NCBI RefSeq assembly: GCF_015775515.1
Contig: NZ_CP065383.1
Location: forward strand, 620,001 to 684,000
From: Atribacter laminatus
GTDB taxonomy: Bacteria > Atribacterota > Atribacteria > Atribacterales > Atribacteraceae
DNA: 64,000 bases
Direction: 5' to 3'
Part shown: piece after piece, positions 13,461-31,476 of the stretch
Position numbering within the stretch: the first letter of the stretch is position 1
Layout: each line of letters begins with the position of its first letter
Notes under the pieces: model-generated
Databases searched by the model: none
What the model saw: only the letters and a program-made list of their open reading frames with translations
What the model was told of the DNA's origin: nothing
Translations under genes and position numbers: made by a program

Positions 13461-14522
13461 TCATAATTCTGGTTGAAACATCACCTTGGTAAATACTTCC
13501 TTTTTATAGAACATCATTTCGAACACTGATTGGCAATCCTCCAAACGAACTCGATGGCTGATAAGTGGTTTTACTCGTATTTTCCCGTTATTCATAAATT
13601 TTAAAGCGCTTTCCCATTCATTGATGGGGAGAGGCGCAATTGAAGAATTCCAGGATCCCAAAATAATTAATTCTCCTCTTAAAATGGCATTCAGTGCCTG
13701 GTTGGGGAGGATGAGGTCATCATAGGATATTCCGCAATATACCACTTTACCCATTTTGCTCACCGATAGTACCGCTTGAGGTTGGGTAAACTTACTTCCG
13801 GCTAATTCAATGGCAACATCGACACCCTTTCCCCCAGTATAATCCTGAATGGCTTTAACCGCATCGGTTGTTTTCCCGTTAATGGTTAAATCCGCACCTA
13901 AAGTTTTGGCTAAATTTAGTTTTTCGTCAAAAATATCTACTGCAACAACATTGGTACAACCTAAGTTTTTTAGCCATTGAACTGCCACAAAACCAATTGC
14001 TCCCAATCCAAAAACCACAGCTGATTGACCTGCTTCCACACCGGCTTTCCGAACTGCATGTAATGCCACACTTACCGGATCGGTCATAGCTCCCATCTCA
14101 TAATCAACATTTTCCGGAAGCTTTAAAACATTCCTCTCGTTGACCAAGATGTATTCAGCCATTGCCCCAGGTATACGAGAACCATAATATTCATAATCGT
14201 CACAAAGGGTATATTCTCCAATTCGGCAATAATCACATTGGCCACAAGGAACTAAAGGCATAATCGTTACACGATCAGCCACTTTAGTCGTTTTAACGTC
14301 TAACCCAATTTCAACGACTTCACCGGCAAATTCATGACCGATGATGATCGGCATTTTATGAGCTCCCTTTACCATAACCCTGGCAATATCTGATCCACAA
14401 ACTCCGCAAGCATGAACTTTTATTAAGACATCATGTGGGTTTTGAACGACAGGAATTTCAGTATTTACACACTCCAGATGACCAGGTGATACCAAAGTCA
14501 CCGCTCGCATGGAAGACTTCAT
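13461..14522 (-). CDS. Zinc-dependent alcohol/polyol-phosphate dehydrogenase of the BMC locus
   Basis: A 353-residue MDR dehydrogenase. It carries the catalytic zinc motif CGVCGSDIARV, GHEFAGEVVEIG, a structural zinc cluster CGQCDYCRIGEYTLC and the Rossmann motif VVFGLGAIGFVAVQW. The closest broad group is galactitol-1-phosphate/sorbitol dehydrogenase. It begins 25 bases after pduL behind GAGGAGG and is the last gene of the BMC cluster. It could regenerate NAD+ by reducing acetaldehyde (or another aldehyde) to an alcohol, or oxidise a polyol feeding the pathway. No encapsulation-type N-terminal helix is visible. Confidence 0.83.
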   Translation of the reverse strand: MKSSMRAVTLVSPGHLECVNTEIPVVQNPHDVLIKVHACGVCGSDIARVMVKGAHKMPIIIGHEFAGEVVEIGLDVKTTKVADRVTIMPLVPCGQCDYCRIGEYTLCDDYEYYGSRIPGAMAEYILVNERNVLKLPENVDYEMGAMTDPVSVALHAVRKAGVEAGQSAVVFGLGAIGFVAVQWLKNLGCTNVVAVDIFDEKLNLAKTLGADLTINGKTTDAVKAIQDYTGGKGVDVAIELAGSKFTQPQAVLSVSKMGKVVYCGISYDDLILPNQALNAILRGELIILGSWNSSIAPLPINEWESALKFMNNGKIRVKPLISHRVRLEDCQSVFEMMFYKKEVFTKVMFQPEL

Positions 14523-14546: not shown

Positions 14547-15221
14547 TCACTTGAATAGTATTCGGCAGTAAGTTGTTCCTTGAACATTCGCTGCATTGGC
14601 TTCTTCAATGTCAATATGAAAAGCCAGCTTACATTTATTCGATACTCGAATAATTACATCTTTAAAAATTACTCCATTTTCCCCTTCGGTTTCCACTTTC
14701 ACTCGTTGATTATCTTTTACTTGGTATTTTTCCGCATCTTCTGGTGTCATATGGATATGTCGTGCAGCACGTATGGCTCCCTCTGGGAGATTTATTGCTC
14801 CCTTTGGACCTATCATAGTTATAGATTGAGAGCCTACTACATCCCCTGATAAACGGGTTGGAAGACTTACTCCTAAGGTATAACCATCGGTCACCGTTAA
14901 CTCAGCCTGGTTATAAGCTCTCACTGGACCGACAATTCTGACATTTTCAATCATTCTCATTTTAGAACTCACTAAGGTTACCTTTTCATCACTAGCAAAC
15001 TCACCTGGTTGGGATATATCTCGAACCTTAGTTAGCTGATAATTCTGGCCAAATAAAGCATCTAAGGCTTCTCGGGTTAAGTGTACATGACGATTGGAAA
15101 CCTCAACTGGGATAGTATAATCTTGATTTGATGTTAACCCAGCGTCAGCTAAATATTTATAGACTGTTTCGGTTATAATTTCGGTTAATAATTGGTTTTT
15201 ATCTCGGTTTTTTTCTTCCAT
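14547..15221 (-). CDS. pduL: PduL-type phosphotransacylase (phosphate acyltransferase) of the BMC
   Basis: A 224-residue PduL-family enzyme, which converts acyl-CoA plus phosphate to acyl-phosphate and CoA, recycling CoA inside microcompartments. Diagnostic motifs are VEVSNRHVHLT (metal-binding HxH), VRIVGPVRAYNQAELT and AIRAARHIHMTPEDA. A 25-residue amphipathic N-terminal helix (KNQLLTEIITETVYKYL) precedes the catalytic domain and resembles a BMC encapsulation peptide. The gene lies 15 bases after deoC. The start has an AAAGGA with a somewhat long spacer. Acetyl-CoA is the expected substrate if DeoC makes acetaldehyde. Confidence 0.92.
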   Translation of the reverse strand: MEEKNRDKNQLLTEIITETVYKYLADAGLTSNQDYTIPVEVSNRHVHLTREALDALFGQNYQLTKVRDISQPGEFASDEKVTLVSSKMRMIENVRIVGPVRAYNQAELTVTDGYTLGVSLPTRLSGDVVGSQSITMIGPKGAINLPEGAIRAARHIHMTPEDAEKYQVKDNQRVKVETEGENGVIFKDVIIRVSNKCKLAFHIDIEEANAANVQGTTYCRILFK

Positions 15222-16056: not shown

Positions 16057-16623
16057 TTATAAATATTTTTTTTCAACTTCCATCATTTTATTAATTCTTT
16101 TCCAATGCCTTCCACCAGCAAATCTGGTTTCGAGCCAAACTTTTACCATTTCATAAATTTGCTCAATAGAGTGAAGAGGACCGCCCAAAGTAAGCAAATT
16201 TGCATCATTATGTTCACGGCTATTCACAATGGTTTTTAAATCGTAACACATAGCCGCTCGAATTCCCCTCACTTTATTACATACCATACATGACCCTATT
16301 CCTGCTCCATCAATCATTATCCCTCTTTCGCAATCCCCATTTTTAACTTTTAATGCAACTTTGAGAGCAAAATCAGGATAGTCAACACTCTCGGTATTAT
16401 ATGTTCCAACATCAGTTACTCGATAACCTAATTCTTTTAAAAAAACTATCAACTTTTCTTTTGATTCGAATCCTCCATGATCGGACCCAATTGCTATACG
16501 TAACACTTTATCTTTGGTATTTAAAGGGAGAGTGTCTGGTTGATTGGTAACGGTAGAAGAATATAAACCATTAACTACGTTGTTCAAGATACGAATAGAG
16601 TTTTCCGAATCTTTTTTCATCAT
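16057..16623 (-). CDS. RpiB/LacAB-family sugar-phosphate isomerase of the BMC, N-terminally extended
   Basis: A 188-residue protein with an RpiB fold from about residue 40. Motifs are IAIGSDHGGFESKE, VDYPDFALKVALKV and SREHNDANLLTLGG (His138 matching the ring-opening His99 of E. coli RpiB). The loop that carries the catalytic Cys66 in E. coli (CGTG) reads IDGAGIGSCMV, so Asp105 replaces the Cys, with Cys112 and Cys115 nearby. Residues 1-25 could form an encapsulation helix. Start ATG 16623 overlaps the stop of the BMC-P gene upstream. It probably isomerises the aldose/ketose phosphate used by DeoC; substrate not proven. Confidence 0.86.
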   Translation of the reverse strand: MMKKDSENSIRILNNVVNGLYSSTVTNQPDTLPLNTKDKVLRIAIGSDHGGFESKEKLIVFLKELGYRVTDVGTYNTESVDYPDFALKVALKVKNGDCERGIMIDGAGIGSCMVCNKVRGIRAAMCYDLKTIVNSREHNDANLLTLGGPLHSIEQIYEMVKVWLETRFAGGRHWKRINKMMEVEKKYL

Positions 16624-16904
16624 TTCTCTCCTCTTTTATCGGTTTGTATTTCATCAACAATACCCACGATAATTGAACGAATTGGGGCAGTTGTATTTTC
16701 AAGAACTGTACGCGCTGAGTTCCCTTCATCCATTACCAATACGATATCTCCCACTCCAGCTTGAACAGTATCAAGCGCTAAAAGGCTTTTTCCTTTTGGT
16801 TTCTCTTCAATATCAACCGGTTTAACTAACAACAATTTGAAACCTTTAAATATATCTAATTTCATTGTTGAAACGACTTGTCCAATTACCTTCGCTAAAA
16901 TCAT
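16620..16904 (-). CDS. BMC-P shell vertex protein (EutN/CcmL family), copy 1
   Basis: A 94-residue pentameric vertex protein of the EutN/CcmL family, which caps the corners of a microcompartment shell. Family features are the N-terminal MILAKVIGQVVSTMK, the internal LLALDTVQAGVGDIVLVMDEG and SARTVLENTTAPIRSIIVGIVDEI. Length is typical. It overlaps the next gene (rpiB-like) and is overlapped by the preceding BMC-P gene, so three genes are translationally coupled. Confidence 0.93.
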   Translation of the reverse strand: MILAKVIGQVVSTMKLDIFKGFKLLLVKPVDIEEKPKGKSLLALDTVQAGVGDIVLVMDEGNSARTVLENTTAPIRSIIVGIVDEIQTDKRGEK

Positions 16905-17179
16905 TTTGTATCTTCCTCAGTATATAAATTATCAATAATACCCATTACCGTTAAATCGGATGGATTAAACCAATTGGTTAAACCCAGGGCAGCTTCTCTG
17001 CCTCCTTCATAAAAAACTATATCATTTAAGCCTGCTTGAACTGCATCACATGCAACAACCGGAGTTCCTTCTTCCTTTAGAGTTTCATTCAGTGGTTGTA
17101 TTAACAACAGTTTAATCCCATTTAACGAATCCACTTTTTGGTCACAAACCACTGTTCCAATAACCTTTCCTATCTTCAT
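16901..17179 (-). CDS. BMC-P shell vertex protein (EutN/CcmL family), copy 2
   Basis: A 92-residue EutN/CcmL-family protein. It starts MKIGKVIGTVVCDQKVD and keeps VVACDAVQAGLNDIVFYEGG and LTVMGIIDNLY. It is clearly divergent from copies 1, 3 and 4 (for example GREAALGLTNWF replaces the SSAR region), so it is a specialised paralogue. It lies 21 bases after the aldehyde dehydrogenase gene and overlaps copy 1 by four bases. Confidence 0.92.
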   Translation of the reverse strand: MKIGKVIGTVVCDQKVDSLNGIKLLLIQPLNETLKEEGTPVVACDAVQAGLNDIVFYEGGREAALGLTNWFNPSDLTVMGIIDNLYTEEDTK

Positions 17180-17200: not shown

Positions 17201-18631
17201 TTAAACAATTCGGAAATAATCAACTAAAGTACACCGCCGTTCTCTAGTAAAAGTTCGAGGCCGGGTAAGACCTTCCCCAGTTGGGCTAGCAATAGTAAAC
17301 GATGTAAAACCTGCACCTTCAAAACCTAAACCACAGTAACTTGGTCCATTTTTAATAAAAATTGAACAATCCATAAGCTTTGCCATAGCGCTGAGATTCG
17401 CAACGTTTTTTGAATGCATAATAGCAGTATGACGAAAACCATGTTCACATTGAACCGCAAATTGAATTGCCTCTTCGACGCTATTAAAACGAACGAATGG
17501 CATAACTGGCATAAGTTGCTCGGTCCACACTAATGGATGATTGGATTCAACTTCGCACAGGAGTAATCGAATATCATCAGGAAGATTCAAGCCAATTTCT
17601 TTAGCTATGAGGTTAGCATTCTTCCCAACAAATTTTTTGTTAGGTGCTCCTTCTTGACCTGGAGCACCAGGTTTATCAATAATAATTGGGGTAATTTTGT
17701 CAATCTGACTTTTATTCAGTTCATAAGCTCCATTCTTTTTTATTTCCTCTTTTAAACGATCAGCAATGCTTGAAACTGCAAGAATTTCTTTCTCACAAAT
17801 ACAAATAATGTTGTTATCAAATCCAGCACCCCTGACAATATCACGACCAGCCTTGAGGATATCGGCAGTTTCATCAACAACACAAGGAGGATTCCCAGGA
17901 CCGGCAGCAATAACTTTTTTCCCACTATTCATGGCTACTCTTACAACTGCAGGTCCTCCGGTTACAACCAATAAACGGATTTTGGGATGCTTCATCATGG
18001 TCTGCGCTGTTTCAAGGGTAGGGTTTTGAATTGCTGTTATCACATTTTCCGGACCACCAGCATCAATAATGGCCTGATTTATGAGTGAGATTACAGTACA
18101 AGAACATTTTTTTGCGTTGGGATGAGGGTGAAAAACGACAGTATTTCCACCAGCGATCATACTTATTGCGTTATTTACGACCGAAGTTGTTGGATTTGTT
18201 GAAGGAATAATTGCTCCAATCACTCCATAAGGAGCTCTTTCCACCAAAGTCATTCCGTGGTCATCAGTATAAGCAATGGGTTCTAGATCTTCAACTCCAG
18301 GCGTTTTAAGAGCAACCAATTTGTGTTTTTCAATTTTATCTTCCACCCGACCAAATCCAGTTTCCTCAACAGCCATTTTGGATAAACTATCCTGATTGGA
18401 CATTACTATCTTTCTTATCTGTCGAATCATCTCTTTACGATGGTCAAGAGTAAGTTGATGTAATTGATAGAAGGCTTTCTCTGCTGCATCTATGGCTGAC
18501 TCAATAGTAGGAAACAATCCCCTGTTTCCCTGTTGGGTTAAGGGTTCTTGCTCAACGATTTCCTGGTTATTTTGTATTTGCTTAAGTATTCTCTCAACGA
18601 TCACCTTAACTTCAGTTTCACTAATATCCAT
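17201..18631 (-). CDS. BMC CoA-acylating aldehyde dehydrogenase (PduP/EutE family)
   Basis: A 476-residue CoA-dependent aldehyde dehydrogenase that oxidises an aldehyde to acyl-CoA with NAD+. The catalytic cysteine is Cys277 in FDNNIICICEKE. NAD and CoA regions are visible in APYGVIGAIIPSTNPTT and VVTGGPAVVRVAMNSGKKVI. The N-terminal 20 residues (MDISETEVKVIVERILKQIQ) form an amphipathic helix followed by a linker, the classic encapsulation peptide position for this family. A GGTGG site lies six bases before ATG 18631. The likely substrate is acetaldehyde from DeoC. Confidence 0.94.
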   Translation of the reverse strand: MDISETEVKVIVERILKQIQNNQEIVEQEPLTQQGNRGLFPTIESAIDAAEKAFYQLHQLTLDHRKEMIRQIRKIVMSNQDSLSKMAVEETGFGRVEDKIEKHKLVALKTPGVEDLEPIAYTDDHGMTLVERAPYGVIGAIIPSTNPTTSVVNNAISMIAGGNTVVFHPHPNAKKCSCTVISLINQAIIDAGGPENVITAIQNPTLETAQTMMKHPKIRLLVVTGGPAVVRVAMNSGKKVIAAGPGNPPCVVDETADILKAGRDIVRGAGFDNNIICICEKEILAVSSIADRLKEEIKKNGAYELNKSQIDKITPIIIDKPGAPGQEGAPNKKFVGKNANLIAKEIGLNLPDDIRLLLCEVESNHPLVWTEQLMPVMPFVRFNSVEEAIQFAVQCEHGFRHTAIMHSKNVANLSAMAKLMDCSIFIKNGPSYCGLGFEGAGFTSFTIASPTGEGLTRPRTFTRERRCTLVDYFRIV

Positions 18632-18679: not shown

Positions 18680-19465
18680 TTATTCCTGTTTTTTCTCTTT
18701 TTGCACATTTTCAGCTATCTGAACCAGAGAACTGAAACTATCAATATTTAAACTTGCTCCCCCTATTAATCCTCCGTCAACGTCTTTTTGGCTAAGAATT
18801 TCTTGAGCATTTTTGGGATTCATGCTCCCTCCATATAAAATTCGAATGTTGAAAGCCATTTCATTCGATGAGGTAAATTCTTTTATGACCCCACGTAGGT
18901 AAGCATGAACTTCTTGAATCTGTTCTTTGGTTGCGCTTTTCCCCGTTCCAATAGCCCAAACCGGTTCATAGGCAACGATAATCGAAGATAACTTCTCATT
19001 ATCAATACCCTGCAAACCGAAAAGGATTTGCTGGTTAAGAACCAAAAAGGTTCTCCCTTGCTTTCTCTCTTCCCATGTTTCCCCAACGCATAAAATTGGT
19101 ATAAGATGATTTTTTAAAGCAGCAGTAACTTTTTTATTTATAATTTCATCAGTTTCATGAAAATATTGCCTTCGCTCTGAGTGACCAATAATGACATAAG
19201 TGCAACCGGCATCTAAAATCATTCCTGGAGATATTTCTCCGGTGTAAGCACCGGATTCTTCAAAAAAGACATCCTGAGCTCCCAATCGAATTTGAGTATT
19301 TTGAATCTCACCATTTACCGTTTCTAAAACCGTAAAAGGTGGAGCCACCATTATATCGACAGACGGAAAAAGCTTGGTTTGCTCAATAACTCCTCTTATG
19401 AGCTCAAGCGCTTCCTGGCGATACATATTCATTTTCCAGTTGGCTGCTATGAGAAACTTGCGCAA
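18680..19465 (-). CDS. tpiA: Triosephosphate isomerase encoded in the BMC locus
   Basis: A 261-residue triosephosphate isomerase, interconverting glyceraldehyde-3-phosphate and dihydroxyacetone phosphate. All catalytic residues are visible: Lys11 in AANWKMN, His95 in IIGHSERRQ and Glu167 in VAYEPVWAIGTGKS, plus the phosphate-binding LYGGSMNPKN. Length is normal for TIM, and there is no clear encapsulation helix at either end. It sits between aldehyde dehydrogenase and the BMC-T shell gene with no glycolytic neighbours, so it is part of this locus. It could pull glyceraldehyde-3-phosphate from the DeoC reaction. Confidence 0.95.
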   Translation of the reverse strand: MRKFLIAANWKMNMYRQEALELIRGVIEQTKLFPSVDIMVAPPFTVLETVNGEIQNTQIRLGAQDVFFEESGAYTGEISPGMILDAGCTYVIIGHSERRQYFHETDEIINKKVTAALKNHLIPILCVGETWEERKQGRTFLVLNQQILFGLQGIDNEKLSSIIVAYEPVWAIGTGKSATKEQIQEVHAYLRGVIKEFTSSNEMAFNIRILYGGSMNPKNAQEILSQKDVDGGLIGGASLNIDSFSSLVQIAENVQKEKKQE

Positions 19466-19482
19466 AATAAACCACCTTATAA

Positions 19483-20037
19483 TTAAAAAATAAAATAATT
19501 CCGAATACCTGGATCAGGATTGGGAATAATAACTTCTTTACAAAGAAGACCCTTTCCACTAATAACTTCAACTGCAGCATGAACAGCTGCTTCAACTTCA
19601 TGAATGTCACCAATTATTTTTATGTAAGACTTACCTCCCATACCAGTAGCCAAACGAACTTCACTTACTAAAACACTGGCGGTTTTAGCTGCAACATCAG
19701 CCGCACTAATACTAGCTACTACGGAAAAAGATTCAATTACAGCTACAGCATCCCAGATTTCACATTCAACCGCTCCGGTTATTGCTGGAATTACCTGGGT
19801 ATGGAGATTTGGGATAAAAAGCTCATCAACAACATATCCTCCTCCTATCTCCTTCCCTCGAGATAGAGCCGCATCAACGGCTGCAACCTCTCCACTCACA
19901 ATAACAACAAATTTTCCCGGACAAATGGTTTTGGCGTCAATAATTTGGATCGGCGCAGCCTTTATCATTCCATCCAGTGCTTGCAACCCCACGGCAATGC
20001 TGTTGAGTTCCAGAACTCCTAAAACAATAATTCCCAT
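19483..20037 (-). CDS. BMC-T tandem-domain shell protein, PduT-like
   Basis: A 184-residue shell protein with two BMC domains (about 1-90 and 95-180) that forms pseudohexameric trimers. The first domain holds DAKTICPGKF, with Cys39 at the place of the PduT cysteine that binds a [4Fe-4S] cluster on the three-fold axis. The second contains AVAVIESFSVVASISAADVA. This strongly resembles PduT. It lies next to the PduS/RnfC-like gene, its expected redox partner. Shell role is firm; cluster binding is inferred from the conserved Cys. Confidence 0.93.
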   Translation of the reverse strand: MGIIVLGVLELNSIAVGLQALDGMIKAAPIQIIDAKTICPGKFVVIVSGEVAAVDAALSRGKEIGGGYVVDELFIPNLHTQVIPAITGAVECEIWDAVAVIESFSVVASISAADVAAKTASVLVSEVRLATGMGGKSYIKIIGDIHEVEAAVHAAVEVISGKGLLCKEVIIPNPDPGIRNYFIF

Positions 20038-20052
20038 AATATTCAGTTCCCT

Positions 20053-21390
20053 CTATCCTTTTATGATGACTCTCTCATTATTAACTAAGGTTACCCGACC
20101 AGAAATACTAGCATGCACCCTGGCTCCAAGACTTCCAGAAGGAATCTCACCAACAAGAGCACCTTCTTCAATCAGGTCACCTTCACGGACAACTGGAATT
20201 GAGTTATCACCTATATGTTGTTTCAATAAAATTTCAACTCGTTTAGGAATGGTTTCTATGGCTGATTTAATTTCTTTCTGGTCATAGCGACTAATATGAA
20301 GTCTCTCTTTGATTCTTGAAACAGGAATTTTTCTATTGATAAGATCATTCACTCTATTTTGCTGGTTTTTTAATGTTAATTGAGGACGATAGTTCGCTTC
20401 AGTCAAACTGGTTTTAATGGCATGATTAATCATTCGAGGCGAAAGATCCATTGGACACGCAAAAACTTCGCACAAACCACATTCACTGCACAAAAATGCA
20501 TTCTCTATCACTTCCGGTGGAACATCTAAACCAAAATTGATATTTCTCATTATTTTGTGAGGATATAACTCATGGCCTAAAAGATATCTTGGACATAATT
20601 CAGTACAATAGGTGCACTGACAACAAGCAGCCTTGCTTTGCTTGACGACCCACGACATTGGCATACTTTTCCGGCGCACTAAATAATGATCTTGGGGAAG
20701 GATAATCAATCCGGTCATGGTTTTAGTTATTGGAGAATTTAAGTCTTTTTCAACATAACCCATCATTGGACCTCCTACGATCACCACAAGATCCTCAACT
20801 AAAACCCCACCACATTCGGAGATTACCTCTCCTATCGACGTCCCAATTCGTGCTATGACCACTGTGGGTTCCCTAACTTCACCAATGCAAGTTAAGGTAC
20901 GCTTGATAACCGGTTTCCCTAAAGTTGCAAAATAAATATTCCTGAGTGTTTCTACATTGCTTACCAAACATCCTACAGACGTTGGAAGCTGGCCTTGAGG
21001 AACAACCCTCCCAGTTACCATATAAACTAAAATCAGTTCATCTCCAGCTGGATAAAAATCATCAAGTAAAGCAAGAGTTATGTTATCTTGGTCAGAAATG
21101 ATAGACTTTATCCGTTCCACGATCTGAACTTGCTTTTTTTTCAGGGCGATGATTCCTTTTTTAGCACCAGTAGCTTGTAAAACAAGCTTTAAACCCTGGA
21201 TAACATCATCCCCATGTTTGTTTAATATATATTTATCATTAAATAAAAGAGGCTCGCATTCGGTGCCATTAGCTATCACTATTTCTACTTGATTTTCAAG
21301 TTTGACATGAGTAGGGAAACCTGCCCCTCCTGCTCCAACAACACCCATCTGCTTAATGGTTTCAATCAAATCCATTATCATATCATCCAA
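20053..21390 (-). CDS. PduS/RnfC-like Fe-S flavoprotein of the BMC
   Basis: A 445-residue protein of the RnfC/PduS family. The N-terminal Rossmann-like FMN/NADH region starts GVVGAGGAGFPTHVKL. A central SLBB region is followed by two [4Fe-4S] motifs, CCQCTYCTELCP and CSECGLCEVFACP. The C-terminal barrel-sandwich segment includes EGDLIEEGALVGEIPSGSLG. PduS reduces cobalamin in Pdu compartments, but no B12-dependent dehydratase is encoded here, so a role in NADH reoxidation or electron export through the PduT-like pore is more plausible. It lies 15 bases upstream of the BMC-T gene. Confidence 0.9.
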   Translation of the reverse strand: MDDMIMDLIETIKQMGVVGAGGAGFPTHVKLENQVEIVIANGTECEPLLFNDKYILNKHGDDVIQGLKLVLQATGAKKGIIALKKKQVQIVERIKSIISDQDNITLALLDDFYPAGDELILVYMVTGRVVPQGQLPTSVGCLVSNVETLRNIYFATLGKPVIKRTLTCIGEVREPTVVIARIGTSIGEVISECGGVLVEDLVVIVGGPMMGYVEKDLNSPITKTMTGLIILPQDHYLVRRKSMPMSWVVKQSKAACCQCTYCTELCPRYLLGHELYPHKIMRNINFGLDVPPEVIENAFLCSECGLCEVFACPMDLSPRMINHAIKTSLTEANYRPQLTLKNQQNRVNDLINRKIPVSRIKERLHISRYDQKEIKSAIETIPKRVEILLKQHIGDNSIPVVREGDLIEEGALVGEIPSGSLGARVHASISGRVTLVNNERVIIKG

Positions 21391-21700: not shown

Positions 21701-22003
21701 TTATCCGGTTTGATCTTTTTGATAGGCGTATGACCCTTTTATTTCGATGGCATCTACTATTGCGACAATAGTTGCATCACTTGGTTTCCCTTCAGTTACT
21801 GCTGTCATTCGGGAACTGCTCCCAGCGACATAGAAAACAACTTCACCAATTCCAGCCCCAACACTATCCATAGCTACTAGGTAATCTCCACTACCTTGTA
21901 ATGTCGTTGGATTAATCTTTTCCAAAAGCAGGAACTTTATACCTTCAATTTTGGGTTCTTTTCTTGTGGATACAACATTTCCAATTACTTTCGCTAATAT
22001 CAT
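21701..22003 (-). CDS. BMC-P shell vertex protein (EutN/CcmL family), copy 4
   Basis: A 100-residue EutN/CcmL-family protein: MILAKVIGNVVSTRKEPKIE at the N-terminus, VAMDSVGAGIGEVVFYVAGSSSR in the middle and ATIVAIVDAIEI near the end. A short charged tail (AYQKDQTG) extends past the usual domain. It begins 11 bases after the BMC-H stop. Its N-terminal sequence is closest by eye to copy 1. Confidence 0.93.
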   Translation of the reverse strand: MILAKVIGNVVSTRKEPKIEGIKFLLLEKINPTTLQGSGDYLVAMDSVGAGIGEVVFYVAGSSSRMTAVTEGKPSDATIVAIVDAIEIKGSYAYQKDQTG

Positions 22004-22014
22004 TTTTCAGCCTT

Positions 22015-22332
22015 TCATAAAACAACTTTCGAAGAGCTCTTTGCTTGACCTCTTCCCAAAGGAAGAACTTCATCAACATTAACATGCGGACGAGGAATAA
22101 TATGAACAGAGATCACTTCACCAACTTTCTCAGAAGCCGACTGACCGGCATCAAGTGCAGCACGCACTGCAGCTACATCACCACGAATGACTGCTGTGAC
22201 GTATCCACCACCAGTTTTTTCATAACCAACTAGCTCGACCCGAGCAGCTTTTACCATAGCATCAGATGCTTCAACCATTGCAGCAAAACCACGAGTTTCA
22301 ATCATGCCTAAGGCATCGGTGTAAATATCCAT
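22015..22332 (-). CDS. BMC-H hexameric shell protein, copy A
   Basis: A 105-residue single BMC-domain protein that forms the hexameric facets of the shell. [50 protein letters not shown] and [15 protein letters not shown] are the hallmark segments (spaced, not contiguous). ATG 22332 is preferred to GTG 22341 because GAGGAG would be only two bases from the GTG. It is the product of a perfect 318-bp duplication with the next gene upstream and differs only in its last residues (SSSKVVL instead of SSKK). Confidence 0.95.
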
Positions 22333-22351
22333 TCTTCTCACTTCTCCTCAT
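22034..22351. repeat. Direct repeat, copy A (318 bp, identical to 22397-22714)
   Basis: Bases 22034-22351 match 22397-22714 without a difference on reading, an offset of 363 bp. The unit covers nearly all of a BMC-H gene plus its ribosome binding site, ending at the CTCCTCAT just upstream. Flanking bases differ immediately outside the unit. Confidence 0.95.
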
Positions 22352-22386: not shown

Positions 22387-22695
22387 TTACTTCTTTGAGC
22401 TCTTTGCTTGACCTCTTCCCAAAGGAAGAACTTCATCAACATTAACATGCGGACGAGGAATAATATGAACAGAGATCACTTCACCAACTTTCTCAGAAGC
22501 CGACTGACCGGCATCAAGTGCAGCACGCACTGCAGCTACATCACCACGAATGACTGCTGTGACGTATCCACCACCAGTTTTTTCATAACCAACTAGCTCG
22601 ACCCGAGCAGCTTTTACCATAGCATCAGATGCTTCAACCATTGCAGCAAAACCACGAGTTTCAATCATGCCTAAGGCATCGGTGTAAATATCCAT
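22387..22695 (-). CDS. BMC-H hexameric shell protein, copy B (first gene of the BMC operon)
   Basis: A 102-residue BMC-H protein identical to copy A through residue 100; only the C-terminal tail differs (ends SSKK). ATG 22695 has the same GAGGAG ribosome site as copy A because that site lies in the duplicated DNA. It is the first BMC gene behind the promoter at 22940-22968. The two copies together raise the dose of the main shell protein from one transcript. Confidence 0.95.
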
Positions 22696-22714
22696 TCTTC
22701 TCACTTCTCCTCAT
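22397..22714. repeat. Direct repeat, copy B (318 bp, identical to 22034-22351)
   Basis: Second unit of the BMC-H tandem duplication. Only 45 bp of unrelated AT-rich DNA separate the units. Silent positions are also identical, which indicates a recent duplication or continuing gene conversion. Confidence 0.95.
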
Positions 22715-22996: not shown

Positions 22997-24175
22997 TTAT
23001 TTCAACAAAACATCCAAAGATAAACCATCTTGAGGAATATATTCTCTCCAAAACTCAACGGATTCTCTTAATCGATCAACAATTTGTTGTGGATAGTCAA
23101 TAGAACTATTAAATATTTCAAACGTTAAATAAATCGCTTTACAACGTGGGGGCAAAAGCGGGTTCTCAGGTTCTTCATAAGAACGGGCAATTGCTTGAAG
23201 AACTTTTTTCGGATGAACAATACCGTTCAAATTATTCTCCCGAGTAAAGGGCTGATGCGAGGATGTTTTCCCATTCGTTTGTTGCAAATGAATAATTGGA
23301 GAATAACATCCCAATAATTTTAGCCAAGAATAAAGGTCACCATCAATTGGTTCAGCAAATAGATAAGAATATCGATCCATTTCGGCTTCAATGAGGTCCA
23401 AGAGAGTTGGTTTAAAAAGAAATGATGATTTTCTGCTTTCAATTACCAGTTTTCTAATTGAATTAGAACCAAGCCAATAGTTCGTCAACGACTCATTACC
23501 GTGAAAACCGGAGAATATCTCTTCTAACTGTTCTTGGTTTGGTCGTAAAAAACGACCTTGACCAACCATGTGCCCGGTATCAAGGGCAATATAAGAAGGT
23601 AATTTTGATCTTTTAAAAACCTCTTTTAAATATTCAAAAGTACCACTTATAGTCCAAGGATATTGATGAGGACTGTACATCTGTTCAAGCATGAGAATGA
23701 CCGGTGATTGACTCGAAGCAAACTTAACTAAATGAGAAATTGTGTCAAAAAGAAGATTTTTTGTTTCTCGGTAGATTTCGGGATCTTGAAGGGTAGGTTC
23801 AGAAAAAGCATGAACAAAAAAACCTAATCCAGCATTTAAAGAAGAGGCTACCTGAATGATTTCTTTGAACCATTGGTTAACCAAACGTTCACGAATTCTT
23901 CGATCAGGATGAAGTAAACCTAAGGTGCGGTAGGTAGAATATCCGGTAAAAAAATTGGCAATCTTCGATTGGTGCTTTTTTTGGCTTTCTTCTACTTTTT
24001 GAACCCAATCTTTTAAATAATCTTTTCCCCCATAAAAAGGATCACACTCGTTATCAGCACTTGCCTCAATATAAGAAATCCCAATCTCTTTTGAAATCCT
24101 CATCCAATCTTCGGGTTCAGTCCATCTTTTTATACCAAAACAATTATCTAATGTTAAATAAATTTTAGGATACAT
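22997..24175 (-). CDS. TIM-barrel sugar isomerase/epimerase-like protein
   Basis: A 392-residue protein of the xylose-isomerase-like TIM-barrel superfamily. Visible segments are YIEASADNECDP, PVILMLEQMYSPHQYPWT (candidate metal-binding Glu), YIALDTGHMVGQGRF (Asp/His ligands) and PIIHLQQTNG, then an acidic AIYLTFEIFNSS. ATG 24175 is used because GGAG lies nine bases upstream; TTG 24190 would overlap that site. It is the last gene of the xylFGH-isomerase-kinase operon, next to the BMC promoter. Similar enzymes isomerise tetrulose or other ketose phosphates, but this substrate is unknown. Confidence 0.75.
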   Translation of the reverse strand: MYPKIYLTLDNCFGIKRWTEPEDWMRISKEIGISYIEASADNECDPFYGGKDYLKDWVQKVEESQKKHQSKIANFFTGYSTYRTLGLLHPDRRIRERLVNQWFKEIIQVASSLNAGLGFFVHAFSEPTLQDPEIYRETKNLLFDTISHLVKFASSQSPVILMLEQMYSPHQYPWTISGTFEYLKEVFKRSKLPSYIALDTGHMVGQGRFLRPNQEQLEEIFSGFHGNESLTNYWLGSNSIRKLVIESRKSSFLFKPTLLDLIEAEMDRYSYLFAEPIDGDLYSWLKLLGCYSPIIHLQQTNGKTSSHQPFTRENNLNGIVHPKKVLQAIARSYEEPENPLLPPRCKAIYLTFEIFNSSIDYPQQIVDRLRESVEFWREYIPQDGLSLDVLLK

Positions 24176-24254
24176 TTCGGATTTCTCCAATCAATAATCG
24201 AGATGACTCAACAATATTTATTGTTAACAGTCCTTCCAAATGGAAAATACCACG

Positions 24255-25748
24255 CTATTTTTCTTGAGATGATAAGAGACGGATATATTTTTCGTAAGCA
24301 CTATCCCAGTATTTTTTATCTCCAGGTTCATATTGATCAATTTTTGAAGAACGAAGTGAAATTTCTCTCCCTTCCTTTAGGCTTTCCACCTCCCTATCGG
24401 CCTTTAACTGCATGATTAAATTTCCCATTGATGTTGTTTCGGTCGGTCCAGCTATGACTGGGATTCCCTTTGCATCGGCAATCCACTGACAAAGCATTTT
24501 GTTCTGAACTCCTCCACCAACAATATGGAGAAGTTTAAGAGGATGCCCACTCATTTCTTCAAGTAATTCTAAATTGTATCGAAACTTTAAGGTCAAACTT
24601 TCATAGAAGCAACGAGCTATATCACCCATAGAATTTGGTATTTTCTGACCTCTTTGTCGGCAGTCTTCCTGAATAACTTTAGGCATATCTGCCTGAGGTA
24701 AACCAAAAATTGGATTATCAACATCAATAAAGGTTTTAGATGGTCCAACTTGAACTGAAGCTTGAACAATTTCGTCCCAACTTAAATTATTTCCAAATTC
24801 ACTTCTCCAACGATTCCGACATTGCTGAATGATCCACAAAGAGGTTATATATTTCACTAGCATATTTTTTCCTTCTGGGATTGCGTTGTTTCCAAAATCC
24901 GATAAAAAAACTTGATCGGATATAATTGGTTGGTCGGTTTGCATCCCCATAATTCCCCAAGTTCCAAGGCTTATAAAAGCCCAATGCTTACCCTCATCAA
25001 TGACTGGTATTCCTGCTACTGCCGATGCGGTATCATGGGTTGCTGGAACAATAACTGGAACAGGATGAATCCCAAATTGGTCGCAAATACTGGTTTGTAT
25101 TTCACCAATTCGATCACCAGGCATAACTATTTCATTTAGTATTGATGGAGAAATGCCAATTCGATTAAGAATCTTTTCCTCCCAGTTTCGTTTATACTGA
25201 TTGCATAAAAGTGTCATAGTCGCATTCGTGTATTCGTTACAAGCTCTTCCAGTTAAAAAATAATTTAATAAATCGGGTATCATGAGCATTTTCCGCCCGC
25301 TTCTTAATTCTAAAGCATTTTCATATTTAAAGGAAAAAAGTTGAAATATGCCCATTATTTCATTGGTTGAACCTGCTGAAAGCTCAAATAATTCTCTCTG
25401 AGGAAGAATATCATATAAAAGCTTGGAGCGGTCATGACGATTTTTATCTCGATAAGTTACCGGATTAGATACTAATTTTCCCCTCTCGTCAATAAAACCA
25501 AAATCACATCCCCAGGTAGAAATTGCTAAAGATTGAACATCAGGGTATTTTGACAAAGAAGCTTTTAGTCCATTTATCAGTTCAGAAAACAGGTGGAGAA
25601 TATCCCAATATATCGTATCAGTTACATATATTGGACCATGTTCAAATCGATGGGTGACATCCATCGTCACTCTTTTCCCATCAAAATGTGCAACCATCGC
25701 TCTTCCGTTGCTCGCACCAAAATCAAATATTAGATAATTTTTTTCCAT
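24255..25748 (-). CDS. FGGY-family carbohydrate kinase, rhamnulokinase-like
   Basis: A 497-residue FGGY kinase. LIFDFGASNGRAMVAHFDG, TIYWDILHLFSELINGLK, SISTWGCDFGFID-type segment (LAISTWGCDFGFIDERG), VTYRDKNRH, PDLLNYFLTGR, VPATHDTASAVAGIP and ISLGTWGIMG follow rhamnulokinase (RhaB) more closely than xylulokinase or fuculokinase. It would phosphorylate a 6-deoxyketose or pentulose, usually at O1. GGAGG lies 11 bases before ATG 25748. It sits between a FucI-type isomerase and a TIM-barrel protein, the usual isomerase-kinase order. Substrate not fixed by sequence. Confidence 0.85.
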   Translation of the reverse strand: MEKNYLIFDFGASNGRAMVAHFDGKRVTMDVTHRFEHGPIYVTDTIYWDILHLFSELINGLKASLSKYPDVQSLAISTWGCDFGFIDERGKLVSNPVTYRDKNRHDRSKLLYDILPQRELFELSAGSTNEIMGIFQLFSFKYENALELRSGRKMLMIPDLLNYFLTGRACNEYTNATMTLLCNQYKRNWEEKILNRIGISPSILNEIVMPGDRIGEIQTSICDQFGIHPVPVIVPATHDTASAVAGIPVIDEGKHWAFISLGTWGIMGMQTDQPIISDQVFLSDFGNNAIPEGKNMLVKYITSLWIIQQCRNRWRSEFGNNLSWDEIVQASVQVGPSKTFIDVDNPIFGLPQADMPKVIQEDCRQRGQKIPNSMGDIARCFYESLTLKFRYNLELLEEMSGHPLKLLHIVGGGVQNKMLCQWIADAKGIPVIAGPTETTSMGNLIMQLKADREVESLKEGREISLRSSKIDQYEPGDKKYWDSAYEKYIRLLSSQEK

Positions 25749-25875
25749 TGCAACCTTTCCTCCAGCCTTACTGTCATAGATACCTTAAAGCTCTTTCTCT
25801 CATTAATCTTATAAAAACAAAAGAATTCCCCTCCTTAATCTTTTATAATTTCTAATTATGATAGAAACTAATTAT

Positions 25876-27321
25876 CTATTGAACAACAACCCACTCAATT
25901 CCAGCAGCATTACAAAATACTTTTAATTCTTCTATCCAATTCCCATAGGTCCCATGAATATGGTTACAGTTGATTGCTTGAATAAAGGATTCCATATCAC
26001 AATCCATACGACAAAAAGCATGTGGCCAATTATCCTGTTCAATCGCTGCAATTCTTTCGTTTTCCTCGGCTCCAAAAGAAACAAATTCTCCATGAACTAT
26101 GACCATTTTATAATGATTTGGAGACCCGCTTCTTGTGAGACGGGCAAGTGTTACTTCGCCAGGTTGAGCAATATGATAAACTGATGGACCACCGGCTGGA
26201 TAATAGAAACCTTGAGGACGAAATTCAACATTTTTTAAGTTTTCAACTGGATCTTTACTTTTACCCGCAAAATATGTAGCATGAGTCCCAGAATTACAGA
26301 AATCCCAGATATTTATCTCGGGGTAATAACTTCGAATATCAGCAAAAAGAACTGGAAGATTTGATATAAGATGGAAAACTTTCATAGTTAAGGCTGCATC
26401 CATATCAGCTTCAGTTGAACATATAATTGGTTCATGTGGTTCGCCTGCCGGACCATAACAGTCATTTAAAAACGCTTCAGCAATATCGGATGTTGAATAA
26501 TGTTCAGTAAGTTCCCTCTGTCCTTTGATTCCACAAAAATCATAATCAAATTCTTCGCACAAACTTTTCATCCCATAATACATTGCAATCGACCGTTTAA
26601 AAAGTTCTTCGGTTAATTTTCCCTTGGAAGAGTTATCTGTCCAGTGAATCTTTTTTATATGTTTTTGAAGGTATTGAGAAGCTTTTTGAACCTTATCTCG
26701 GTTTTTTAATTCGATTTCTGTTCTTCTTACTAACTCCATTTGGTCAACATGGTCAACATCAATCCCAAATTTCTCCATCCACAATGCAGGATCAGATACT
26801 GCAGTATCGATTGAAAGAGATCGCCCGCCTACATTTACATAAGTAAGACCTTTTAAACGGTTATAAGTAGAAACACCTAATATGCATTCTCGAAGTCGTT
26901 GGTAAATTTTTGGATCATTTAAATCCCCAAAAATCTTATGAAAAGGAATCCCAACCTGGTCCAAGGAACCAGCATTAGCCAACATTCCTACCATTGCTGG
27001 AAAACCTGGATTGAGATTTGCGTACAAAATTATTGGTTTAGGGCAAAACTGAGCTGCAACCCGGGCAAAACCTGGCCACGCCCAAACACAATAATTGAAA
27101 ATTACACAATCAACATCTTCATGGGCCATCATTCTCCCATATTTTACAGCTAAAGAATTTTTCCAGATGACTTCCTCTCCCACAACAACATCAAATCCAT
27201 CTTTCACCAGAGTTTCTTTTACTTTTGCCTGGAACTGAGCATTTACAGCTTCTAAGTCTTTTTTTAAAAATTCTCGTCCATCTCCAAATGTCAGAACACC
27301 AACTTTTATTTTTTTTGCCAT
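25876..27321 (-). CDS. L-fucose/L-arabinose isomerase family protein
   Basis: A 481-residue protein of the FucI/AraA isomerase superfamily, converting aldose to ketose with Mn2+. Metal-site regions are visible: GIKGQREL (Glu), CSTEADMDAALTM (Asp) and NHIHGTYGNW (His), matching the order of Glu, Asp and His ligands in FucI. It is shorter than true L-fucose isomerase (about 590) and close to AraA (about 500), so it is an uncharacterised subfamily. ATG 27321 has AAGGAAGG behind it; ATG 27342 lacks a site. It follows xylH by 50 bases and precedes the RhaB-like kinase. Confidence 0.83.
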   Translation of the reverse strand: MAKKIKVGVLTFGDGREFLKKDLEAVNAQFQAKVKETLVKDGFDVVVGEEVIWKNSLAVKYGRMMAHEDVDCVIFNYCVWAWPGFARVAAQFCPKPIILYANLNPGFPAMVGMLANAGSLDQVGIPFHKIFGDLNDPKIYQRLRECILGVSTYNRLKGLTYVNVGGRSLSIDTAVSDPALWMEKFGIDVDHVDQMELVRRTEIELKNRDKVQKASQYLQKHIKKIHWTDNSSKGKLTEELFKRSIAMYYGMKSLCEEFDYDFCGIKGQRELTEHYSTSDIAEAFLNDCYGPAGEPHEPIICSTEADMDAALTMKVFHLISNLPVLFADIRSYYPEINIWDFCNSGTHATYFAGKSKDPVENLKNVEFRPQGFYYPAGGPSVYHIAQPGEVTLARLTRSGSPNHYKMVIVHGEFVSFGAEENERIAAIEQDNWPHAFCRMDCDMESFIQAINCNHIHGTYGNWIEELKVFCNAAGIEWVVVQ

Positions 27322-27371
27322 TTGTTTGCCTTCCTTATTCATTATTTTTTTTCTAAATCACTTAAGAAGTT

Positions 27372-28532
27372 CTATCTTTTTTCTGAAGCCTTCCGAGACA
27401 TATCAAACCATACAGCCAAAATAAGGACTAATCCTTTGACGATAGTTTGCATAAAGTAAGGAGCATTGAGTAAGCTCATTCCATTATCAATACTCGCCAT
27501 AACAACTGCGCCAATAATTGCACCAGTGACAGTACCAATTCCACCCATCAAGCTTGCTCCTCCAATTACACAAGCTGCTATGGCATCAAGTTCACCATTG
27601 GTGCCAGCGTTAACTGAAGCTGAATCTAAGCGAGCAGTTAAGTAAATACCGGCTATTGCAGCCATTAAACCATTGATCATAAACACTGCTAAGGTTATTT
27701 TCCTGATATTAATGCCCGATAATCTACTTGCCATAGTGTTTCCACCAATAGCATAGATTCTTCTCCCAAATACCGTCCTGTTTGTCACATAATTAAATAC
27801 CAATAATAACAAAATGAGCAAAATTACCGGATTCGGTATACCATGATAAGCATTTAACATCATCACAAATAAAATAACTAAACAACTAAAAACAATTATA
27901 ATAATTAACGTATTTCTAAAAGGCGAAACAGGAAGATTGTGCATAATCTTTCCACGCCTTTGTTGAAGCTGAATAACAATAAACCCTACGATAGCGATGA
28001 TACCAATAACCACTCCGGCAATTGGAGGAATAAATTGTTTTCCAATTACACCAAAAAAAGGACTTAATGGACCTATGGTTATCCCATCGGTTATTCCAAC
28101 CAAAACTCCCCGAAAAATGAGCAACCCTGCCATAGTAACTATAAAAGCAGGAACATTGCGGTAGGCAAACCACCACCCATTCCATAAGCCCAAAAGGATA
28201 CCAACACCCAGAGTAATGATTATCGCCAACCCTGAAGGAATGCCATGCCAGACATTTAGAATAGCCAATATGCCACCACAAAGACCAGCAAGAGATCCAA
28301 CCGACAAATCCACTTGACCCAGTAAAATTACATTTACCATCCCTATGGCCATAATACCGGTAAAAACTGATTGCCGGAATAAATTAGTCATATTTCTTGG
28401 TAATAAAAAGGTCCCATTAGAAGCAATAGTGAATACTATCCAAATACCGATCAATGCAAAGATCATCATGTATTGACGCACATCTAATTGAGAAAATAAG
28501 TTAGAACGTTTTGTTGTATCATTTATAATCAT
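27372..28532 (-). CDS. xylH: Xylose-type ABC transporter permease
   Basis: A 386-residue multi-pass permease of the ribose/xylose family. It is longer than RbsC and close to E. coli XylH because of an extra loop and membrane segment around QLQQRRGKIMHNLPV. Landmarks are MGMVNVILLGQVDLSVGSL-like and ELDAIAACVIGGASLMGGIG. Start ATG 28532 overlaps the TGA of the ATPase gene (ATGA), which fixes the start and shows translational coupling. Works with XylG and XylF upstream. Confidence 0.87.
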   Translation of the reverse strand: MIINDTTKRSNLFSQLDVRQYMMIFALIGIWIVFTIASNGTFLLPRNMTNLFRQSVFTGIMAIGMVNVILLGQVDLSVGSLAGLCGGILAILNVWHGIPSGLAIIITLGVGILLGLWNGWWFAYRNVPAFIVTMAGLLIFRGVLVGITDGITIGPLSPFFGVIGKQFIPPIAGVVIGIIAIVGFIVIQLQQRRGKIMHNLPVSPFRNTLIIIIVFSCLVILFVMMLNAYHGIPNPVILLILLLLVFNYVTNRTVFGRRIYAIGGNTMASRLSGINIRKITLAVFMINGLMAAIAGIYLTARLDSASVNAGTNGELDAIAACVIGGASLMGGIGTVTGAIIGAVVMASIDNGMSLLNAPYFMQTIVKGLVLILAVWFDMSRKASEKR

Positions 28533-30076
28533 GAATACACCATCCTGCATTCAGTTCCAGTCGCATAAATCATTATATCTTCCTGACTGACATTTCTCTC
28601 AGAATTATCAAATTCACCAGTAACCCGACCTTGGCACATAACCAAAATCCGGTCACACATCCCAAGAATTTCTGGTAACTCTGATGAAACCATTATAATT
28701 CCCAGGTCTTCCTGAACCAGGGAATTCATAATTGTATAGATTTCTCTTTTCGCACCTACATCAATCCCTCGGGTTGGTTCATCAAGAATTAAAACCGATA
28801 TTGATTTTAACAAACCTCTGGCTAAAAGGACCTTCTGTTGGTTTCCACCGCTAAGGTTAATAATTGGAGTAGAAAATGATGGAGTTTTAATCTGAAACTT
28901 TCGAACACTTTCGTTCACAGAAACAATTTCTTGGTCTTCATCAATGCTTCCCATTTTTTTCTTAAACTGTTTAATAAAAGCAATTGAAATATTTTCTCTT
29001 ACATCCATAGTTGGTATATTTCCAAAAGCTTTGCGATCTTCAGTAATATAAACGATCCCTTTTTCCAGAGCAGCTTGTGGAGATTGAATTTGTAATTTCT
29101 CTCCTTTCAATAATACCTCACCGGTATACCTCCCTTGAGGATTCCCAAAAAGGGCATTAACCAATTCGGTACGACCTGCTCCGACCAAGCCAAACAATCC
29201 TAGAATTTCACCACTATATAATTCTAAATTGACATTTTGCACCAAGATTTTTGATTTTATAGGGTCAATTAAGTTAATATTTTCTGCTTTTAGAAGAGGT
29301 GTTTTATTATTTTTTTGAGGACGAGTTGGATAATATTCGGTGATCTCCCTCCCAACCATCAATTTAACCAGGTCTCTTTTGGTTAAATTTCTGATTTCAC
29401 CACCACCTACTGTTTTCCCATCTCTCAGAACGGTCACATAATCAGCTATCTCTAAAACTTCATCTAAGCGGTGTGAAATATATATGCATGCAACTCCTTG
29501 AGTTTTAATGTCTCTTAGAATAGACATTAATAATTCGACTTCATGTCGGGTTAGAGACGCCGTTGGTTCATCTAAGATTAAAACTTTGGTTCCCTTAATT
29601 CGAAGAGCTCGAGCAATTTGGATCAGTTGTTGCTTGCCAATGCCTAAATCTTTCATTCTGGTTGTTGGAAGAACATCATCAATTTTTAAAGTCTTTAACC
29701 ACTCAACAGTTTGTGAGTACATTTCATCGGCATCGAGAATCCCTTTTCGATGAATTTCATGGCCTACAAATATATTTTCAGTTACATTCAGTTCTCGAAA
29801 AAGGCTTAATTCTTGGTGAATAACCACAATTCCAGCAGCTTCTGCTTCATGAATTGTATCAAAGGTTCGTTCTATCCCATCAACCAGAATTTGGCCTTCA
29901 TAGGTTTGAGTAGGATAATACCCACTAAGAACATTAATAAGGGTTGATTTCCCGGCACCATTTTCACCACATAAGGCATGAATCTGATTACGATAAACCT
30001 GGATTGATACTCCATCTAAAGCTCGAACTCCGGGGAAATTTTTAATTATATTTTTTGCTTCAAGAACAATTGTCAT
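28529..30076 (-). CDS. xylG: Xylose-type ABC transporter ATP-binding protein
   Basis: A 515-residue ATPase with two NBDs. NBD1 has Walker A GENGAGKST, and VLILDEPTASLTRHEV. NBD2 has GLVGAGRTEL, LSGGNQQKVLLARGL and VLILDEPTRGIDVGAK. Both Walker B Asp-Glu pairs are intact, unlike two other CUT2 ATPases in this window. ATG 30076 has GAGGG seven bases upstream; ATG 30082 is also possible. It follows xylF across a 13-bp-stem hairpin. Confidence 0.9.
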   Translation of the reverse strand: MTIVLEAKNIIKNFPGVRALDGVSIQVYRNQIHALCGENGAGKSTLINVLSGYYPTQTYEGQILVDGIERTFDTIHEAEAAGIVVIHQELSLFRELNVTENIFVGHEIHRKGILDADEMYSQTVEWLKTLKIDDVLPTTRMKDLGIGKQQLIQIARALRIKGTKVLILDEPTASLTRHEVELLMSILRDIKTQGVACIYISHRLDEVLEIADYVTVLRDGKTVGGGEIRNLTKRDLVKLMVGREITEYYPTRPQKNNKTPLLKAENINLIDPIKSKILVQNVNLELYSGEILGLFGLVGAGRTELVNALFGNPQGRYTGEVLLKGEKLQIQSPQAALEKGIVYITEDRKAFGNIPTMDVRENISIAFIKQFKKKMGSIDEDQEIVSVNESVRKFQIKTPSFSTPIINLSGGNQQKVLLARGLLKSISVLILDEPTRGIDVGAKREIYTIMNSLVQEDLGIIMVSSELPEILGMCDRILVMCQGRVTGEFDNSERNVSQEDIMIYATGTECRMVYS

Positions 30077-30189
30077 TTTCATGCCCTCACTCTAATTCAA
30101 ATACTAAATGGTTACCAACCGGTAATAATAAGTTTCTCTGTAGGATTTTAACTATGTTATTGAGGAATTTATAAATTAGTTTTCTATAT

Positions 30190-30222
30190 TGGTGGGAATC
30201 ATCAGAAGTATGATTCCCACCA
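30190..30222 (-). terminator. Intercistronic hairpin after xylF
   Basis: Perfect 13-bp stem (TGGTGGGAATCAT and complement) with a 7-nt loop, starting ten bases after the xylF stop. No U tract follows, so it is more likely an mRNA 3' stabiliser or leaky terminator than a full stop for xylGH. Confidence 0.65.
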
Positions 30223-30231
30223 TTTAGCGAA

Positions 30232-31293: not shown

Positions 31294-31476
31294 TCTAAAT
31301 CCTCCTTTTTTCAATAAATAAGCATGATAGATTTTTAAATTTTATTGACTGGAGTTTCTTGATGAATAAATTGCAGCATAGAACAACAATTATTTTATTA
31401 TTTTCCCAACTCCTTTCTTTTTGATAAAATAATTGCAATACAATTTAAGAAAAATTCACTCTATTCTCATTTTCCT

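Follow-up and report, generated by a model that had tools for sequence, protein, structure and literature searches.

The question of how NAD+ is regenerated in metabolosomes that enclose no alcohol dehydrogenase has been in print since 2014. An Atribacterota locus raises it in a simple form, as this locus is the only BMC locus found in its genome, encodes a single BMC-T shell protein together with a PduS-type oxidoreductase, and harbours neither a B12 enzyme nor a glycyl radical enzyme that could use the electrons. It is therefore well suited to examining whether an iron-sulfur cluster carries electrons across the shell. The window, i.e. the whole stretch of 64,000 nucleotides that was analysed, corresponds to C1:620001-684000 of a single-contig genome of 3.10 Mb (G000).

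Open reading frames and profile scans delineate in the window a minus-strand operon of 13 genes (22704-14547), with intergenic gaps of -4 to 48 bp, which encodes in this order two BMC-H, two BMC-P, PduS, PduT, a triosephosphate isomerase (TIM), an aldehyde dehydrogenase, two further BMC-P, RpiB, DeoC and PduL. All the genes of the window described below lie on this strand. The two BMC-H shell proteins (22387-22704 and 22015-22341) both match PF00936 with 105.2 bits and, according to nucleotide comparison, the first 308 nt of the second gene are those of the first; this tandem arose by duplication or gene conversion in the very recent past, and the close relatives G001 and G004 each have a single BMC-H match. 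Two of the BMC-P vertex proteins match PF03319 (21393-21686, 90.5 bits; 16620-16904, 93.5 bits), the two others being recognized from their reading frames and either the same-position genes of relatives (21701-22003, EutN/CcmL-type) or matches in relatives (16901-17179). The PF00936 matches of the genome are limited to the two BMC-H genes and the two domains of PduT, all inside the window, in a search that a satellite BMC-Tdp gene located elsewhere could escape, since BMC-Tdp-like proteins score below the PF00936 cut-off.

The enzymes encoded by the operon identify the type of compartment. A DeoC-type aldolase (PF01791; 15237-16025) and an RpiB-type sugar-phosphate isomerase (PF02502; 16057-16623) are found beside the shell genes, along with a CoA-acylating aldehyde dehydrogenase of the EutE/PduP type (17201-18631; NF011927, 675.8 bits) and the phosphotransacylase PduL (14547-15221; PF06130, 240.7 bits, and NF011652 above its cut-off). 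As the aldolase passes the cut-off of the deoxyribose-phosphate aldolase DeoC equivalog (TIGR00126, 285.7 bits from residue 51, cut-off 117.3) and the isomerase that of RpiB (TIGR01120, 151.4 bits, cut-off 138.65; PF02502 from residue 43), the compartment is of the SPU (sugar-phosphate-utilising) type, for which the processing of deoxyribose 5-phosphate within the shell is predicted. The TIM is encoded at 18680-19465 (PF00121, 318.2 bits). DeoC, RpiB and PduL carry N-terminal extensions of ~50, ~40 and ~37 residues, respectively, and the aldehyde dehydrogenase begins with an amphipathic stretch. Shuffled sequences reached an N-terminal hydrophobic moment as high as the natural one in 5 of 300 cases for DeoC, 3 for RpiB, 14 for the aldehyde dehydrogenase, 5 for PduS and 240 for PduL, in a weak test for which the Salmonella PduP control gave 42 of 300. 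Of the five proteins, PduL alone fails to stand out, and the control itself does so modestly. Upstream of the operon and on the same strand (22997-31314) lie genes for a xylose-isomerase-like barrel protein, a rhamnulokinase-like FGGY kinase, a protein of the L-fucose isomerase family and a sugar ABC transporter. These genes may point to a substrate source other than deoxyribose; kinase and isomerase genes also adjoin the BMC genes of locus L090.

The PduS-type protein (20053-21390; TTG start, 445 aa) has the domain order required of PduS, i.e. Complex1_51K, SLBB, Fer4_17 and a C-terminal RnfC_N (residues 373-440), the SLBB match (26.0 bits) being just below its cut-off of 27. Its two sets of cluster ligands (C256/C259/C262/C266 and C301/C304/C307/C312) occupy positions that are cysteines in every one of the 61 rows that cover them, in a PduS alignment of 62 rows that also shows the glycine-rich NADH/FMN motif to be retained. 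Comparison with the annotated PduS of Salmonella gives 39%. The possibility that this protein is a misnamed RnfC was ruled out, as a separate RnfC gene (C1:339186-340469, in L198) sits in its own rnf operon (~C1:335549-340526), whose remaining subunits were named by eye from reading frames. Both proteins share homologous Complex1_51K and Fer4 modules; however, the barrel-sandwich domain is N-terminal in RnfC and C-terminal in PduS, and one gene belongs to an rnf operon whereas the other belongs to a BMC operon. This architecture also bears on a proposal made for such loci by Axen 2014 (PMC4207490), in the part of that paper available, namely that PduS itself reduces the aldehyde in place of an alcohol dehydrogenase. 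As no aldehyde-reducing domain was found in PduS, which is built like an electron carrier of the NADH-dehydrogenase/RnfC type, this is the most improbable of the explanations considered.

The adjacent gene (19483-20037) encodes a protein of 184 aa with two PF00936 stretches that aligns over nearly its full length with solved PduT chains (best matches 3nwg, 3pac and 3n79) and relatives. Its Cys39, in the stretch ICPGKF, falls in this alignment of tandem BMC domains on the pore position of the cluster ligand of PduT, so that it is predicted to bind a [4Fe-4S] cluster. The protein is called PduT-type rather than a PduT equivalog, as it scores 108.7 bits with TIGR02526 versus a cut-off of 250.3. 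Domains, alignments and ligands thus bear out the original prediction of a PduT-like BMC-T with Cys39 located beside a PduS/RnfC-like protein with two [4Fe-4S] motifs.

The statement of the same prediction that neither a diol dehydratase nor a cobalamin reactivase is encoded in the locus agrees with the reading frames and profile scans of the operon, and the search extends to the genome. G000 contains no match to PF02286 (diol/glycerol dehydratase); no control matched in a first run, and a second run on 13 genomes gave a match in one genome other than G000, which serves as the positive control. EutB and the PduO-type adenosyltransferase (Cob_adeno_trans, PduO-type family only) were each found in none of 50 Atribacterota genomes, this one included for EutB, the controls being matched in both cases. 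The BMC locus contains no glycyl radical enzyme, and the only PF02901 gene found in the genome (C1:2474116-2476080) is about 1.8 Mb away from it. The compartment is therefore neither of the PDU nor of the EUT type (no B12 diol dehydratase, no EutB), nor of the GRM type (glycyl radical enzyme outside the BMC locus). A B12-dependent dehydratase elsewhere in the genome would have told against the claim that the pair does not serve cobalamin reduction; none was found, and the idea that the pair serves a distant B12 enzyme was rejected, the dehydratase, EutB and PduO-type searches all being empty. Since the genome has none of these three enzymes, a B12 role is very unlikely; the claim is further supported by the shell cysteine, which, in the wider comparison presented below, tracks an adjacent PduS with or without a B12 enzyme in the locus.

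The kinship of the pair to PDU proteins could also mean that it is a functionless relic of a PDU-type ancestor, an option named by Axen 2014 (PMC4207490) in its available part, or that it still reduces the corrin of an enzyme in the cytosol. However, the eight cluster cysteines and the glycine-rich motif are retained, PduO-type adenosyltransferases (only this family being considered) are missing from all 50 Atribacterota genomes, and in the PduS tree all 18 rows from Atribacterota group into a single, diverse clade (support 100/100), which makes this explanation improbable. In the same tree, two Kiritimatiellia SPU rows neighbour the Atribacterota clade with modest support (96/77), and the PduS of a third SPU locus (L154) is placed elsewhere, in an unsure position.

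The pair is best read as a candidate exporter of electrons from NADH. PduS and PduT would form the redox module of the SPU metabolosome and pass the electrons of luminal NADH to a cytosolic acceptor without any cobalamin, a proposal that has about an equal chance of being right or wrong. In this scheme, the aldehyde dehydrogenase would produce acetyl-CoA and NADH, and PduL would recycle CoA by forming acetyl phosphate. PduS would dock on PduT and take the electrons of NADH through FMN to its two clusters, from which they would reach the [4Fe-4S] cluster that the PduT trimer would bind with its three copies of Cys39. This cluster would then hand them to the cytosolic acceptor, so that NAD+ would be regenerated inside the compartment and cobalamin would play no part.

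The same enzymes can be read in the opposite direction. The aldehyde dehydrogenase would then act as an acetyl-CoA reductase and DeoC would condense acetaldehyde into deoxyribose phosphate, as a sink for NADH and a store of carbon, with PduT and PduS importing reducing power. This direction of the enzymes is that of Nobu 2016, as reported in the accessible part of PMC6281690; a fermenter needs NADH sinks, and the genome has an rnf operon. However, PduL and TIM suit catabolism at least equally well, and the known potential of PduT, in the source available in part, is too high for the reduction of NAD+. Inward flow is therefore unlikely, although it is, with recycling by an alcohol dehydrogenase, one of the two main competitors of export.

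The latter competitor stems from a gene on which the original prediction was silent, as it was on deoC and rpiB, the signature genes of the SPU type. A zinc-dependent MDR dehydrogenase (13461-14522; PF08240/PF00107) is encoded 24 bp past pduL on the same strand, and it is probably co-transcribed with the BMC operon, its role in the BMC being uncertain. The statement that there is no alcohol dehydrogenase in the locus thus has to be rejected. This enzyme could recycle most of the NAD+ by converting acetaldehyde into ethanol, as in ordinary metabolosomes, leaving to PduS and PduT the role of an overflow valve. Indeed, a homologue follows pduL in 5 of 11 Atribacterota loci (L086, L087, L099, L037 and the window), the count being made on the loci with at least 1.5 kb beyond pduL (10 fetched loci and the window), with a match within 1.5 kb, and shorter loci being set aside. 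However, the gene was not found in the other 6 of these loci; the enzyme has no N-terminal extension, even though alcohol dehydrogenase can enter a BMC without one according to a source available in part; and its best NCBIfam model is a sugar-phosphate dehydrogenase, galactitol-1-phosphate 5-dehydrogenase, matched with 266.9 bits versus a cut-off of 550. Recycling by this enzyme is thus, like inward flow, an unlikely account of the locus.

The pair itself is far more constant. PF00936 matches occur in 26 of the 50 Atribacterota genomes, and 25 of these 26 have a close PduS, with 54-100% identity in the stretch that matches; the remaining genome, G002, only has a BMC fragment of 33 positions at the edge of a contig. 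The 24 genomes without BMC match have no close PduS; their weaker matches, of at most 36% identity, were named by us as being of the RnfC and NuoF kind. Cys39 is kept in all 20 readable PduT rows of the fetched Atribacterota loci, the PduT of L100 being a fragment of a broken copy that stops short of this column. L100 (G010:C56) is a second SPU operon, apparently frame-broken, with PduS, PduT, AldDH and PduL matches in pieces, the intact operon of the same genome being L083. The intact loci long enough to show it share the order BMC-H, BMC-P, BMC-P, PduS, PduT, [TIM], AldDH, BMC-P, BMC-P, RpiB, DeoC, PduL. These counts (25 of 26 versus 5 of 11) indicate that PduS and PduT are fixed in the Atribacterota operon and that the zinc dehydrogenase is not.

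For a wider comparison, 102 loci picked by similarity to the aldehyde dehydrogenase of the window were annotated. They comprise L037, L041, 20 stretches from Atribacterota and 80 from two other phyla, each of the latter surrounding one of the top AldDH matches. In the phylum to which the Kiritimatiellia genome G051 belongs, matches occurred in 61 of 387 genomes and the 40 best of 61 rows were used; in that of G058, they occurred in 44 of 398 genomes and 40 of 48 rows were used. Among the 83 PduT-type rows of this sample, 60 combine the pore cysteine with an adjacent PduS and 21 have neither, with Ser, Gly or Thr at the Cys position; one has the cysteine without PduS (L153) and one, the L100 fragment, is unreadable. 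Pairs of PduS and Cys-bearing PduT occur alike with diol dehydratase, class II aldolase, glycyl radical enzyme and DeoC. However, the 21 Cys-less rows form a single supported clade in a PduT tree built with a quick method and a long-branch warning, so that this coupling may rest on a single loss or gain. Among the 38 DeoC loci of the sample, 17 have PduS without a BMC-Tdp-like gene, 19 (L114-L132, in the phylum of G051) have a BMC-Tdp-like gene and a Cys-less BMC-T without PduS, two have both and none has neither, the BMC-Tdp label being given from the reading of the sequences and from the partly available account of SPU shells in Sutter 2021 (PMC8217296) rather than from a model match. Both this pattern and the Cys/PduS coupling are confounded with phylum. 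In L126, RpiB and DeoC are fused in a single reading frame.

A speculative reading of these patterns, unlikely at present, is that SPU compartments have two interchangeable means of redox exchange with the cytosol, either an iron-sulfur wire made of PduS and a PduT with the cysteine, or a gated pore of the BMC-Tdp-like kind through which large cofactors pass. BMC-T would then retain its pore cysteine only in the presence of a PduS that can use it, and the Atribacterota locus, which has a single BMC-T with this cysteine, would be of the wired kind. The exceptional L153 (L153:1000-13072; G726, phylum of G058) encodes two BMC-Tdp-like proteins beside its Cys-bearing PduT-type protein, and also an aldehyde:ferredoxin oxidoreductase, a corrinoid (B12-binding) protein and URO-D-type and MtrH-type methyltransferases; possibly, its iron-sulfur aldehyde oxidoreductase feeds PduT directly. 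The coupling and the choice between PduS and a gated pore amount to a comparative prediction for more phyla.

The comparison also qualifies the idea that the pair is an alternative to alcohol dehydrogenase. This idea fits only in part. The window does carry a zinc dehydrogenase gene right after pduL, and 18 of the 19 SPU loci without PduS have no recognised alcohol dehydrogenase nearby (windows of ~10 kb on each side, searched with a few reference proteins). The absence of an alcohol dehydrogenase therefore does not predict PduS; the rule that PduS is present where the former is absent is unsupported, and the pair is not generally needed where this enzyme is missing.

Taken together, the domain content, the complete set of cofactor ligands, the one BMC locus found in the genome, the lack of a B12 enzyme, the presence of a close PduS in almost all BMC-bearing Atribacterota genomes, the conserved gene order and the co-occurrence of the pore cysteine with PduS count in favour of export. 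So does the biochemistry of Citrobacter PduS in the published account available in part, where NADH reduces FMN and a cluster and PduS co-purifies with PduT. Against export count the published potential of the PduT cluster, +99 mV in the part of the literature available, which is too high for Rnf, ferredoxin or H2 and would call for a high-potential acceptor; the dehydrogenase gene directly after pduL; the single clade of Cys-less rows; and, if the host resembles isolate RT761, the description of the latter, in a source available in part, as a syntrophic fermenter without BMC by microscopy. On balance, outward flow ranks first, on evidence that leaves its chances close to even.

Much of this picture is already in print in outline, as far as the available parts of the sources go. 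In Axen 2014 (PMC4207490), the SPU type was described on the basis of single-cell genomes, Atribacteria among them; its loci encode AldDH, RpiB and PduL, with PduS restricted to those of Atribacteria and TIM present in one, B12 enzymes being absent and AlcDH being the missing core enzyme. Sutter 2021 (PMC8217296) counted more than 280 SPU loci of seven subtypes in 26 phyla, and, according to PMC7542362, BMC shell genes that share synteny with those of Rnf, AldDH and DERA are expressed in deep sediment. The pair in a B12-free SPU locus, its puzzle and the export idea are all covered in outline by Axen 2014, the papers citing Nobu 2016 and Burrichter 2021, the export idea having been put forward for PDU, GRM and related BMCs in Parsons 2010, Axen 2014, Ferlez 2019 and Burrichter 2021. 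What is newly added here are the comparative patterns, i.e. the Cys/PduS coupling and the presence of PduS or BMC-Tdp in every DeoC locus, for which no published statement was found in the literature within reach, which excluded supplementary files and most subscription papers.

Compared with the Atribacteria SPU BMC of Axen 2014 and Sutter 2021, as given in their available parts, the window shows nothing essentially different: both have DeoC, RpiB, AldDH, PduL and PduS, TIM being present in one published locus, and no B12 enzyme, the window adding the two near-identical BMC-H genes and the zinc dehydrogenase after pduL. The PduS and PduT of the Citrobacter and Salmonella PDU BMCs resemble those of the window in domain order, cluster cysteines, pore cysteine and gene adjacency, but the window lacks PduCDE, PduO and reactivase, and its PduT is below the TIGR02526 equivalog cut-off. 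According to the available part of the work on Citrobacter, PduS carries FMN and two coupled [4Fe-4S] centres, undergoes reduction driven by NADH and has an NADH-dependent cobalamin reductase activity, and its authors suggested that electrons pass out of the compartment. In Listeria, a source available in part ties the activity of the eut BMC to extracellular electron transfer and notes that one shell protein has a cluster site like that of PduT. A parallel among the B12-free glycyl-radical BMCs is the isethionate BMC of Bilophila: as far as the accessible text of Burrichter 2021 (PMC8667426) goes, it has the pair without B12, its cluster has no alcohol dehydrogenase gene, and electron export was proposed for it, with the +99 mV of PduT limiting the possible acceptors; the available part of a 2025 study of Bilophila still calls NAD+ recycling elusive. 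The two compartments differ in their signature enzyme, which is a glycyl radical enzyme in Bilophila and an aldolase in the window.
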